Assembly (NCBI GenBank): GCA_021777535.1
Contig: JAJYDN010000021.1
Location: forward strand, 1-38,448
Direction of reading: 5' to 3'
Length of the DNA: 38,448 nt
Source of the DNA: Pseudomonadota bacterium
GTDB lineage: Bacteria; Pseudomonadota; Gammaproteobacteria; Acidiferrobacterales; Acidiferrobacteraceae
A model generated the notes under the pieces. That model was not told where the DNA came from, did no database searches, and saw only the letters and a list, made by a program, of their open reading frames with translations. Below, piece after piece: positions 601 to 5,616 of this stretch. A program made the position numbers and the translations under genes. Each line of letters starts with the position of its first letter. The first letter of the stretch is position 1.

Positions 601-993
601 ATGGATTACCAGCAGGCACAAAATCAGTTGTCACAGGTTCAGCAACAGTCGCAGATGGTCATGCAGAAACTGCAGGCATTCGCCCAGAAGCTTGGCGCCG
701 CAGCGCCCGATCCGACTACGGGCCGCGAATGGGCGATGGATCTGCGCGAAGTCGCGATGGCAGTCCAGGGACAGGCCCAGCAGACGAGCATGCTGCTAAG
801 CCAGATGGCCGACTACATCGGCCGCCTGGAAAACGAGATGGCAACCCATCCGACGACGAATGTGCAGCCGACCGGCTGGGCGACCCAGTCGTCCGGCGGC
901 GGCTTCATGGGCGCGCTGACCAGCGGCCTGGGGATGGGCGCGGGTTTTGCGGTCGCAGACGATCTCGTCAACGATCTATTCAACCTGTTTTAG
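601..993 (+). CDS. Conserved-looking small protein of unknown function
   Basis: The 130-residue protein has no recognised family. Residues 1-85 are rich in Gln, Ala and Met ([16 protein letters not shown]) and should be helical, probably coiled coil. Residues 95-130 are Gly-rich and hydrophobic ([15 protein letters not shown]) and end with acidic-amphipathic [11 protein letters not shown]. The layout of a helical body and a glycine-rich hydrophobic tail resembles DUF2076-type proteins in style only; I do not assert homology. The ATG at 601 has a GGAGAG-like ribosome site 6 nt upstream. The stop lies inside the 3' end of convergent argH, an 18 bp tail-to-tail overlap. Confidence 0.7.
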
Positions 994-2376
994 GGCGCGC
1001 AACCGCGCGCTGGCCCGCGCCACCGCCGCCCGCACCTGGGCGGGCGCGGTGCCCCCGAAATGGTTGCGCGCGGCAAGCGAGCCCTCCAGTGTGAGGACCG
1101 CGAACACGTCCTCGCCGATGATGGGCGCGCACTGGCGCAGCTCGGCGAGCGGGAGCGCCGCCAGATCGACTCCGCGGTCGATGGCAAGCCGCACGGCTTT
1201 GCCGGAGGCCTCATGGGCGTCGCGGAATGGCATCCCCCGGCGAACCAGGTAATCCGCGAGATCCGTCGCCGTGGCGTAGCCGCGGCCGGCTTCCGCGCGC
1301 ATCCGTTCCCGGTGAAAGGTCGTTGCCGGCAGCAGTTCGGTGAGGGCGCGCAGGCTGTCTGCGAGGGTGTCGAGCGTATCGAAGAGGGCCTCCTTGTCCT
1401 CCTGGTTGTCCTTGTTGTAGGCGAGCGGCTGGCCTTTCATGAGCATCAAGAGGCCCACCAGATGACCGGTTACCCGTCCGGTCTTGCCGCGCAAAAGCTC
1501 CGGGACATCCGGGTTTTTCTTCTGGGGCATGATGGATGAGCCCGTGCAAAACCCGTCTGCGAGCTCGATGAAACCAAATTGCGGCGTCGACCAGAGCACG
1601 AGTTCTTCGGCAATGCGGGACAGGTGCACCATGGCAAGCGCCGCATCTGCCGTGACCTCGATGACGAAGTCCCGGTCCGATACACTGTCCAGCGAGTTTT
1701 CGGATACCGCCGCAAAGCCGAGCAGCCGCGCCGTGAGTTGCCGGTCGATCGGAAAGCTGGTGCCGGCCAGGGCGCCCGCCCCGAGCGGCAGGACGTTGAT
1801 GCGCGTGCGCGCCTCTTGCAGGCGGGCATGATCCCGCAGGAACATCTCAAACCACGCGAGCAGGTGGTGCCCCAAGGTAACGGGTTGGGCGACCTGCAGA
1901 TGCGTAAAGCCGGGCATCACGGTGTCCGCCTCGGCAGCAGCGATGTGCACGAGGACCTGCATGAGCTCTTCAAGGCGCCCGAGCAGACCGTCGACCTGGT
2001 CGCGCAGATAGAGCCGTATGGTGGTTGCCACCTGGTCGTTGCGCGAGCGTGCGGTGTGCAGCTTCTTGCCGGCCTCGCCGATGCGTTCGGTCAGGACCGC
2101 CTCGATGTTCATGTGGACGTCTTCCCGCGCCACGGACCACGTAAACTGGCCGGCGTCGATTTCGGCCTCGATGGCCGTGAGGCCCTCACAGATCCGGGCG
2201 GCCTCGTTTTGCGAGAGGACCCCGACCGCCGCGAGCATCTGCGCGTGCGCCTTGGAGCCCTGGATGTCGTGGTGATAGAGGCGCCGATCAAAGCCGACGG
2301 AGGCGGTAAAGTGTTCCACGAAGGCGTCGGTCGGCCCGCTGAAGCGGCCCTTCCAGGCCTTGTCGGGAGTGGACAT
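976..2376 (-). CDS. argH: Argininosuccinate lyase
   Basis: ArgH splits argininosuccinate into arginine and fumarate, the last step of arginine synthesis, as a cytoplasmic homotetramer. The 466-residue protein has the fumarase/aspartase superfamily signature [15 protein letters not shown] around residue 280, plus TARSRNDQ and the [17 protein letters not shown] block. Length is normal. The ATG at 2376 gives [12 protein letters not shown], matching family N-termini; a TTG 21 nt upstream is an alternative. The 3' end overlaps the plus-strand gene at 601-993 by 18 bp. ArgH beside algZ-algR is the order known from Pseudomonas, which supports vertical inheritance. argB lies elsewhere in this window (34780). 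Confidence 0.96.
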
Positions 2377-2521
2377 GGTGGTGTCTGGCTCTGCCAAAAA
2401 AGAGCCATCTTACCGGATGGACCCCTTGGGGCGTAAGTCTTGCCGCCCGTCCGTGCGAGGCCGCCAATCATCGGTCGTACATTGAGCGGACTCGTCCGCT
2501 TGGTTAAGGTTATAGCGTTGT

Positions 2522-2611
2522 TCCTGGTGCCGGACTCTCCTTATGTGCACCCCCACCCCAAATACCGGACCAGGATTCTGCCCCTTAGAGTCATCTAAGG
2601 GGCTTTTTTTT
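2522..2611 (+). ncRNA. Candidate two-hairpin small RNA with anti-Shine-Dalgarno loop
   Basis: The first hairpin pairs TCCTGGT-(G)-CCGG (2522-2533) with CCGG-ACCAGGA (2565-2575). Its 31-nt loop (2534-2564) contains TCTCCTTA, close to the 16S rRNA 3' tail, and a C-rich run. Six nucleotides later comes a strong intrinsic terminator (stem 2581-2602 plus T8). No protein gene on the plus strand leads into this terminator. A weak promoter-like pair, TTGAGC (2482-2487) and TAAGGT (2505-2510) with a 17-bp spacer, would start transcription near 2517 and give a transcript of about 95 nt. This is inference from structure; the family is not recognised. Confidence 0.4.
2581..2611 (+). terminator. Strong rho-independent terminator
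   Basis: CCCCTTAGA (2581-2589) pairs perfectly with TCTAAGGGG (2594-2602) around a GTCA tetraloop; C2603 and an uninterrupted T8 run follow. This is the best-formed intrinsic terminator in the window. It terminates plus-strand transcription although no plus-strand protein gene lies upstream, which is the main reason to suspect a small RNA here. Confidence 0.85.
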
Positions 2612-3763
2612 ATCTCGGGTGCCCCCCGGAGGCTCAGGTGCAGGTCTGCGCGGCAGGATAACGGGGCTGGCCGCCCGATTTCCGCTGGGGCGCAAGGGGC
2701 ACAAGCGGGGCGTGTTCCCCGTACTGGCACGTTGCCCCCCCTGGGTGTCATGTAGTCCTGCTTCAGGAGGGCGAAGCTGCCGGAATAGACCGGAGGCTTT
2801 TGGTGCCCCTACGCCGGCAGCCGCATCTCCCTGGGTCTTTTGCGTAACCGGTAGGCGATGAGCGTCCCCGCGGCTGTGGCATGGCTGGGGCCGGGACCGG
2901 GAATGTGCGCTCCCTGATGGGGCATGCCGCTTACCCCACCGGGCAGGAGCGGGCGGTGTTCGATTCGCGTTCGTTGATGGACATCCTCGAACGTGCGGCC
3001 CATCCGGGGGCAGGCGGATCGTCATGGAAATCCCTTTCATGAGACACGGAAGAGTCCAGGCTGGCGAACGGGGTCGTGGGTGTCAAGAGCAAACCAAAAG
3101 GCAAAGTGCCCCCGGGCCACCCCTTGTCCTGCGTGTTTTCTCCCGCAAAAGGACCCGTCCCGGGGATCAGGAGGCGCGCATCCCGCGACGCCCCAATCCG
3201 TGCCGCCAGTGGTGCGGCAGTAACCGCCGGCTCGCGGATCGAGGTGTCCTGAACCACGGATTCGCCCCGCGTGCCGTCCATCCGGGACCCATTCGTTGTT
3301 CTGCCGTCCGCCCGGCCCGCGGATTCCGGAACCACCCTTTCCGGAAGACCCGCAACGCTGCTCAGTGCGCATCGCAGCCCATCGTGTGTTACCCGCTTAC
3401 CCCCATTTCTTGCACGTCCCGTTCCGGCGATGCCCCTCGATCCGTGTATCATCCGGGCGTCAACGCCGCCCCCCGACCGTGTGTGCAAGCCCTTTCAAAT
3501 CCATCGGCGGCCATCCCGGACGGCCATGCGGCTTGCGCGGCCATGGCCTCCAGCGCACACTTTGCGCGGGTTTTTTTGGCGCCTCTTCGCCGTGCGGCGC
3601 CGCCCAGGGCTGAGGCAGGCAGTGACCGTTCGCCGCAAAAAAAGCGCCGCCCGTTGGCCCGCGGTGTCGGGTGCGGGCTGCGTCCTGTACAAATCTGCGC
3701 AGCTTTTCGGTACTCTGGATCCGGGCAACGCGGTTGCGCGGGCCCATCCTAGCGGATCATGCC

Positions 3764-4843
3764 ATGAGAAATTCAGCCGCCTCCTTCATGCCCGATTTTG
3801 CGTCGTTTGCCACGGCCTGGCAGTTTCTCGTGCTCGCCGAGACGATCGCCATCGTCTTTACCATCAGCCTGAATGACCGCCTGGGCCACGGCGTTCTCCG
3901 CGACTTTCTGTTCCTGTCGGCATACGCCATCACGGTCGCGCTCGTCAGTCTCGGGCTTCTGAAAATGGCCAGCAAGTCGTTGCGCCGCCTGTCCGCGGTC
4001 AGGGCCTCGTCTGTGATCGTCGTCCTGCTGCTGATCGTCATCGCCGCCGTGACGGAGATCCTCGTCTACGCGCTCTACCGGGCAGGCTTCGTGTCCCAGC
4101 GCTGGCCCGCGTGGCACCTGCCCCTGCTGATCCACAGCCTTCTCATCGGCGCCATCGTCATGGTATTCGCGTTGCGCTATTTCTTCGTGTCCCATAAGGC
4201 CCAGGCCGATGCCAAGCTCGAGCAGGAAGCGCGCATGCAGGCGTTGCAGTCACGCATTCGCCCGCACTTTCTGTTCAACAGCATGAATAGCATCGCAAGC
4301 CTTACCCGGAGCGATCCACCGCGTGCGGAGGCGGCCCTCCAGGATCTGGCCGATCTCTTCCGTGTTTTGCTTGCCGATGCGCGCAAACTTGTACCCATTA
4401 CGGCCGAGCAGGAAATATCCCGCCAGTATCTGGAGATAGAAAAACTGCGTCTCGGTGACCGGCTTCACGTGGTCTGGCGTGTCAACAATGTGCCGAAAAA
4501 TGCGCTGATTCCAACGCTGACCTTGCAACCAATCCTGGAAAATGCGATCTATCACGGCATAGAACCCCGTTTCGGTGGTGGTACGGTGCGTGTAGAATTA
4601 TGGACGGACAACGGTGAGACGCTGAACGTGCTCATCAGTAATCCGATTCCCGATGTGCGCAAGCATGCGCACGGGAGCGGGAACAAGATCGCCATGGATA
4701 ACATCCGGCAGCGGCTCGCAAGCCACTTCGAGGACAATGCGAGCCTGCAGACGTTTGAGGAGGGCGGCCAGTATCACGTCAAAATAAAAATGCCCATTGT
4801 CCGTAATCAGGGGGGAAGACTGACTGCGGAGACCGTACGATGA
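3764..4843 (+). CDS. algZ: AlgZ/FimS-type LytS-family sensor histidine kinase
   Basis: The 359-residue membrane kinase has about four hydrophobic segments in residues 15-142 and no large periplasmic domain. A His_kinase domain of the LytS/YpdA type follows. The phospho-acceptor box is SRIRPHFLFNSMNSI with His168, and the N-box is LQPILENAIYHG with Asn260. The unorthodox ATPase lacks a classic HisKA dimerisation domain, as expected for AlgZ. The ATG at 3764 begins MRNSAASFMPDF; the longer upstream frame is not membrane-like. The stop overlaps an in-frame ATG of the response-regulator reading frame (ATGA). Position next to argH matches the Pseudomonas argH-algZ-algR locus. The signal sensed is unknown. 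Confidence 0.9.
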   Translation: MRNSAASFMPDFASFATAWQFLVLAETIAIVFTISLNDRLGHGVLRDFLFLSAYAITVALVSLGLLKMASKSLRRLSAVRASSVIVVLLLIVIAAVTEILVYALYRAGFVSQRWPAWHLPLLIHSLLIGAIVMVFALRYFFVSHKAQADAKLEQEARMQALQSRIRPHFLFNSMNSIASLTRSDPPRAEAALQDLADLFRVLLADARKLVPITAEQEISRQYLEIEKLRLGDRLHVVWRVNNVPKNALIPTLTLQPILENAIYHGIEPRFGGGTVRVELWTDNGETLNVLISNPIPDVRKHAHGSGNKIAMDNIRQRLASHFEDNASLQTFEEGGQYHVKIKMPIVRNQGGRLTAETVR

Positions 4844-4884
4844 TGAGAGAGTTGGCGCAACTGAATGAATCGCGGAGGGATGCG

Positions 4885-5616
4885 ATGAGGGTGTTGATCG
4901 TTGATGACGAGAAGCTCGCGCGCGATCGGCTGCGGGAGCTTTTGGGGGAGATGGGCGAGCACACGGTGGTGGGCGAGGCGATGAATGGCAGCGAAGCCAT
5001 CGAGCAGACGGAACGGCTGAACCCGGATGTCCTGCTCATGGATATCCGGATGCCGGGCATGGATGGGCTGGAGGCGGCCATGCATCTCATGAGTCTGGAT
5101 ACGCCGCCCGGCGTCATCTTTACGACCGCATACGATCAGCATGCGCTGGATGCCTTCGAGGTCAATGCCATCGACTATCTGCTAAAGCCCATCCGCAAGG
5201 ATCGTCTCGAGAAGGCGCTGGGCAAGGCGGGCAAGCTGACGCTACAGCAGTTGCAGGACTTGAATCAGGCGCAGGAACGGCCGGTCGTGCGTACGCACTT
5301 GAGCGTCCATCTGCGCGGCAATATCCGTTTGGTGCCGGTACAGGATGTGCTGTATTTTCTGGCCGACAACAAATACGTCACCGTGCGCACATCAGGCGAA
5401 GAGCACCTGATCGAGGATTCCCTGGTCAACCTGGAGCGGGAATTCGGGGAGAGCTTTTTGCGTATCCACCGCAATGCCCTGGTCGCAACACCGTATATCA
5501 GCGGCATCGAGAAGGACACGAGCGGGACGTGGCACGTGACCCTGAAGGGCCTCGACCGGCGCCTCGCGGTGAGCCGCCGCCATGCCGCCGCCGTGCGGCG
5601 CTGGGCGCGCCGCTGA
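4885..5616 (+). CDS. algR: AlgR-type LytTR response regulator
   Basis: The 243-residue protein has an N-terminal receiver domain (1-115) with acidic pocket Asp7/Asp8, phospho-acceptor Asp53 (LMDIRMPG) and Lys101 (LLKPI). A C-terminal LytTR DNA-binding domain follows (about 140-243: LRGNIRLVPVQDVLYF, FLRIHRNALV, RRLAVSRR). It is the partner of the upstream kinase. I chose the ATG at 4885 because a GGAGGG site lies 5 nt upstream and it begins MRVLIVDDEK as in the family. An ATG at 4840, overlapping the algZ stop, would add 15 residues and cannot be excluded. In Pseudomonas AlgR controls alginate, type IV pili and virulence genes; targets here are unknown. hemC/hemD, which follow in Pseudomonas, are absent. 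Confidence 0.9.
   Translation: MRVLIVDDEKLARDRLRELLGEMGEHTVVGEAMNGSEAIEQTERLNPDVLLMDIRMPGMDGLEAAMHLMSLDTPPGVIFTTAYDQHALDAFEVNAIDYLLKPIRKDRLEKALGKAGKLTLQQLQDLNQAQERPVVRTHLSVHLRGNIRLVPVQDVLYFLADNKYVTVRTSGEEHLIEDSLVNLEREFGESFLRIHRNALVATPYISGIEKDTSGTWHVTLKGLDRRLAVSRRHAAAVRRWARR

Follow-up and report, generated by a model that had tools for sequence, protein, structure and literature searches.

In staphylococci, the LytTR regulator AgrA drives RNAIII, a regulatory RNA encoded beside its own operon. RNAIII is a long, peptide-encoding RNA of Firmicutes, unlike the sRNA considered here, and we know of no homology between the two. In P. aeruginosa, AlgR binds the promoter of an sRNA (prrf2) in vitro (PMC5790918), but that case concerns another sRNA at another locus. 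The Betaproteobacteria toxic small RNAs (RF02278; ncS03, ncS05, ncS27, ncS62) are double-hairpin RNAs of Burkholderia in which the second hairpin is the terminator and a CU-rich open stretch is complementary to ribosome sites; several copies can occur, and expression in E. coli inhibits growth (PMC5688073). In Neisseria, the sibling sRNAs NmsRA and NmsRB repress several mRNAs through UC-rich single-stranded anti-Shine-Dalgarno (anti-SD) regions (PMC5362039). The NmsR sRNAs differ from the element described below in having three stem-loops, and their sequences were compared with it through Rfam only. We know of no LytTR-type promoter for NmsRA or NmsRB. No published sRNA in the organisms studied here or at the argH-algZ locus was recognised in the open-licence literature.

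We analysed a 38,448-nt stretch of DNA (the window) that carries a hairpin-terminator element between argH and an algZ-like gene. Judged from its sequence, the element is a conserved fold with an exposed conserved region and an intrinsic terminator, as in base-pairing trans-acting sRNAs, and the intergenic stretch very probably gives rise to a regulatory RNA that had not been catalogued. The locus comprises the following features:

979..2376, minus strand: argH (argininosuccinate lyase), conserved divergent neighbour
2442..2451, plus strand: box 1 of a LytTR/AlgR-type direct repeat, GCCGCCCGTC
2463..2472, plus strand: box 2 of the LytTR/AlgR-type direct repeat, GCCAATCATC
2482..2487, plus strand: putative -35, TTGAGC, with TTG nine bases after box 2
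2505..2510, plus strand: putative -10, TAAGGT, after a 17-bp spacer, placed by comparing upstream regions by eye
2522..2577, plus strand: hairpin 1, whose 11-bp stem contains a bulged G and closes a 31-nt loop, from the fold and covariation
2535..2558, plus strand: conserved loop core, CTCTCCTT (anti-SD-like) and TGCACCCCCACCCC
2580..2611, plus strand: intrinsic terminator, 10-bp stem and eight T (U in RNA)
3764..4843, plus strand: algZ-like histidine kinase, conserved downstream neighbour
4840..5616, plus strand: algR-like response regulator (receiver and LytTR), proposed activator

Structure of the element and its relation to catalogued RNAs

In the minimum free energy (MFE) fold, stem 1 consists of 7 + 4 bp around one bulged G and closes the 31-nt loop ACUCUCCUUAUGUGCACCCCCACCCCAAAUA, which includes TCTCCTTA. 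The initial annotation had described a bulged 11-bp hairpin presenting UCUCCUUA in a 31-nt loop, a near-perfect terminator and the lack of a preceding protein gene on the same strand. The hairpin and loop are borne out by sequence and MFE fold, the terminator stem of 10 bp is followed by eight U, and the upstream argH is divergent, with its start at 2376. That account read UCUCCUUA correctly and saw the structure, but it overlooked the more invariant second half of the loop, UGCACCCCCACCCC, and did not notice the AlgR-type promoter boxes. The 126-nt fold has an energy of -39.2 kcal/mol (z -1.22), which 22 of 200 shuffles equalled and which is thus not significant; because the fold energy is unremarkable compared with shuffles, it was not used as evidence.

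A search of the window with the 4227 models of Rfam 15 at gathering score gave no match, and among 20 homolog loci searched at E ≤ 5 no match exceeded the gathering score of its family. Permissive matches (anti-hemB, toxic sRNA, Spot 42, suhB and others) lay far below the curated scores, were mainly terminator-driven and were rejected. The lowest E-value among the Rfam matches over the element belonged to anti-hemB (RF02837), which likewise has a hairpin with a C-rich stretch and a terminator; it scored 19.7 bits in the window and 27.1 bits in the best homolog against a threshold of 49.5, and this score derives mainly from the terminator, because most alignments skip the loop. The window RNA shares with RF02278 the form of a short two-hairpin RNA with a UCUCCU open stretch and a terminator, but its loop has the additional invariant UGCACCCCCACCCC and its neighbours differ. 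RF02278 was listed for only one of the 20 homolog loci (L006, 22.1 bits), and the window scored 19.3 bits. Because these scores lie below the gathering score of 50, we do not file the window RNA under RF02278, although it resembles that family in working. With every Rfam family below its curated score, the earlier view of an independent sRNA is upheld.

Conservation across the order and the constant place before algZ

The element is conserved far beyond chance. A covariance model built from the wider set of copies described below matched 53 of the 57 genomes of the order, which from record names we take to be Acidiferrobacterales, and 33 of the 34 genomes with completeness ≥ 90% and contamination ≤ 5%; the misses were G018, G047, G052 and G054, and G020 gave a partial match. 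When 60 genomes, among them that of the window, were searched at the DNA level, 55 matched at E ≤ 1, 49 of these at E below 1e-4. The labels of the named genomes with loci (38 loci) include Acidiferrobacterales, Acidiferrobacteraceae, Acidiferrobacter and Candidatus Muproteobacteria. One locus, from Polyangiaceae (L078), is a chance pattern match inside unrelated coding DNA and was dropped from the counts.

Covariation was assessed in 24 sequences. These are the 30 aligned copies without L002-L004, which align poorly because of their bulge, and without three near-duplicates (L011, L017 and L030); L001 duplicates L002, both being the window. In this set, 239 of 240 stem 1 cells are paired and 5 of the 10 pairs show double-sided changes, and none of 500 shuffles was as good on either measure. 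A wider set of 55 copies from 52 sources (L177 gave none), with 51 distinct rows and an alignment fitted to the model, showed double-sided changes in all 10 pairs of stem 1, with 98.4% of its cells paired and 93.8% of those of the terminator. The loop is nearly unchanged among the 30 aligned copies: the TCCT and TGCACCCCCACCCC columns do not vary in any of the 30, a single row (L025) carries an additional C, and across the order UCUCCUU hardly varies. By this alignment, the invariant part of the loop is UGCACCCCCACCCC more than the anti-SD stretch. Stem pairing and loop conservation in relatives, which the initial annotation had named as its check, were thus both found.

The loop can also be read as coding for a leader peptide (M/V-H-P-H-P-E...) that would act as a translational attenuator. 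An in-frame ATG or GTG precedes CACCCCCACCCCGAA in many sequences, but third-codon-position changes in CACCCCCACCCC number zero among 30 sequences, the one-base insertion in L025 is a frameshift, and the start is preceded by the complement of a Shine-Dalgarno sequence instead of a Shine-Dalgarno sequence. Given the lack of synonymous change and the L025 frameshift, we rejected this peptide as highly improbable.

The order argH (divergent), element, algZ-algR is kept in all 37 true loci as far as the flanks reach: 36 have the divergent argH upstream (L104 begins too near the element), and 35 have algZ downstream (L077 and L085 end too soon). The adjacency to algZ/algR in a gammaproteobacterium, already pointed out in the initial annotation, therefore extends to neighbours that are constant across the order. 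One candidate for a locus lacking algZ, L025 in G055, was uninformative, because its sequence turns into a run of N immediately downstream. Two algZ-like kinase genes stand one after the other in several genomes of the order (L110, L111 and G023, G028).

Because of this constant place before algZ, a cis-acting reading stays in play as the main rival, namely a transcription attenuator or riboswitch-like algZR leader in which hairpin and terminator decide on the passage of polymerase into algZ. Such a leader would account for algZ lying on the same strand downstream wherever the locus extends far enough (35 of 37) and for a two-sided synteny that is unusual for a trans-acting sRNA. We nevertheless consider it unlikely: the distance from terminator to algZ is not constant, ranging from less than 100 nt (relatives) to about 1150 nt (window), inspection brought up no conserved alternative pairing, and in one distant family two copies follow one another, both with boxes and a terminator of their own. 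Further, a promoter belonging to algZ itself is suggested by a -10-like element, present after the terminator in 28 of 38 loci compared with 1% of random segments, with a regular expression chosen after looking and with the window negative. In relatives, 126-527 nt separate the loop core from the start of the algZ match. The interval from terminator to algZ in the window (2612-3763) comprises about 1.15 kb without convincing genes and is far shorter in relatives.

Tandem repeats upstream of the element

The DNA sites of LytTR regulators are pairs of 9-11-nt repeats separated by 11-13 nt (PMC4847170), and such pairs often lie 10 bp before the -35 (PMC6193735). The boxes upstream of the element are 10-mers with a spacer of 11, a geometry that fits the layout of LytTR-regulated promoters. 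To score them, 230 nt upstream were taken and the 10-mer RCCRNYYRTC was applied twice, with a maximum of 18, to 46 box copies (36 named loci, the window and 9 copies outside the order; L104 was omitted, having no upstream DNA). At a start-to-start spacing of 21 bp, all 46 copies scored at least 15 of 18 and 41 scored at least 16, counts that are not independent, since the sequences share descent and also served to derive the pattern. The next best spacing reached at least 16 in 11 of 46, and single-base shuffles reach 16 in 0.13%. The boxes of L081 score 17. Among argH-algZ regions of other families without the sRNA (18 of 20 fetched, two longer stretches being skipped), 17 of 18 scored below 16 and the eighteenth scored 16 with a poor first box. 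The pattern RCCRNYYRTC-N11-NCCRNYNRTC has one match in the genome of the window, at this locus, and is present in 18 of the 19 genomes searched.

A TTG stands nine bases after box 2 in 33 of the 37 loci of the order and 19-20 bases after it, about one helical turn more, in the other four; none of the 9 copies from outside the order shows it at nine bases. A sigma-70 promoter scan found no promoter, the putative -35 included. Transcription would start at about 2517-2522.

For AlgR of P. aeruginosa, PMC4064291 gives the core CCGTTCGTC, sites that are not necessarily direct repeats 12 bp apart, and binding at the minor-pilin gene fimU. The window boxes match this core at 7 and 6 of 9 positions, and ACCGTTCATC, found in the copies of L041 and L050, matches it at 8 of 9. 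Tandem boxes also occur at fimT/fimU-like minor-pilin ORFs, named by eye from their N-terminal sequence, in 4 of 19 genomes (G018, G022, G023, G024). These boxes, ACCGTTYRTC, lie at or inside the 5′ end of the ORFs in L142, L128, L129 and L176 (G018, G024, G023 and G022, respectively), several of them 21 bp apart and some in arrays, and read in frame they encode repeated PFI/PFV. In L177 (G018:C116:101585-101615), boxes lie near a contig end with no RNA downstream, which may reflect the assembly edge or a loss. The repeats upstream of the sRNA promoter look like an AlgR docking site. AlgR as the regulator is supported by the box layout, by pilin-gene boxes as at P. aeruginosa fimU, and by the domain composition of the window AlgR, which has receiver and LytTR domains.

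Copies outside the order and the function of the loop

In a search of 369 genomes of the class, the clear matches outside the order came from three genomes of family f64 and one of family f116 (G379), and all of these copies sit at argH-algZ. The f64 genomes hold two terminator-bearing copies in tandem, at a distance of about 310-440 nt; in G113, G249 and G353 (L036, L038, L041, L050), the loops of the tandem copies between argH and algZ differ, as in sibling sRNAs. Matches at about 39 bits in two genomes of family f161 (L039 in G320, L040 in G210) were regarded as a separate RNA and left uncounted; their common element is a hairpin-terminator with CTCCCCC in which, by eye, an inner hairpin fills the loop, and no argH or algZ match was found in the stretches fetched around them. 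Because 369 genomes were searched, the remaining matches, at E 1e-4 to 1e-2, were taken as chance.

All six f64 copies read have CCCTCA (CCCUCA in RNA) in place of UCUCCUU as their anti-SD half, and CACCCCC is kept in five of them, so that the C-rich half appears to be the more ancient, shared portion. This swap with retention of CACCCCC also implies that anti-SD exposure is not the whole, and perhaps not the core, of the function. Of the earlier interpretation, a conserved sRNA gene with loop and terminator is supported, and repression by pairing to ribosome sites is a candidate function.

No conserved start-codon site matching the exact complement of TGCACCCCCAC was found in 19 genomes, and none of the 13 inspected non-self loci with an exact core complement lay at a conserved start (two of them, L173 and L149, are one coding stretch in two genomes). 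The start regions of argH, algZ and algR showed no better pairing with the loop than with its shuffled versions (median ranks 45, 29 and 26.5 of 100, respectively). The algR start regions of a few family-1 loci ranked 3 to 8 of 100, but the G-run there encodes the end of AlgZ. These searches bear on the possibility that the RNA is real and acts as a sponge, binding a protein through its C-rich loop instead of pairing with mRNA, which the rigidity of the 14-nt UGCACCCCCACCCC and the lack of a complementary site found would suit. We regard it as quite unlikely, as similar loops of other sRNAs pair with ribosome sites (PMC5362039 and PMC5688073). A CsrA sponge was rejected, the loop being without GGA except at the stem edge.

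The explanation that we favour, and hold to be fairly probable, is a free-standing gene of about 90-95 nt whose product is a base-pairing sRNA, controlled by AlgR and probably dependent on Hfq; the genome of the window has an Hfq gene (PF17209, 104 bits). From the site layout, AlgR, with its kinase AlgZ encoded just downstream, would bind the repeats at 2442-2472 and activate the promoter at 2482-2510. The RNA would fold into a hairpin with a 31-nt open loop, a strong terminator and a U tail, a fold that covariation supports. The loop (CUCUCCUU plus UGCACCCCCACCCC) would pair with G-rich or Shine-Dalgarno regions of several mRNAs and, probably with Hfq, block their translation, giving the AlgZR system a repressing arm. 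Because its promoter looks like an AlgR docking site, the sRNA may be how AlgZR signalling turns genes down.

A broader proposal, which we put forward tentatively and consider rather unlikely as a whole, is that AlgZR has had a dedicated sRNA beside it, as a post-transcriptional repressing arm, in two or more separate lineages of Gammaproteobacteria. AlgR would raise both the pilus genes and the RNA via shared 21-bp tandem boxes, the two-part loop would clamp mRNAs at a G-rich stretch and the Shine-Dalgarno sequence, and Pseudomonas-type AlgZR would lack or have lost the sRNA.

The element would represent an RNA family that spans a whole order, is missing from the catalogues and has a promoter logic that can be read. 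Its covariance model could become an Rfam family, and its proposed regulator and its loop are both testable. It would connect RNA-level control outside Pseudomonas with a two-component system related to pili, and tandem AlgR-type boxes may make the AlgR regulons of uncultured relatives readable.
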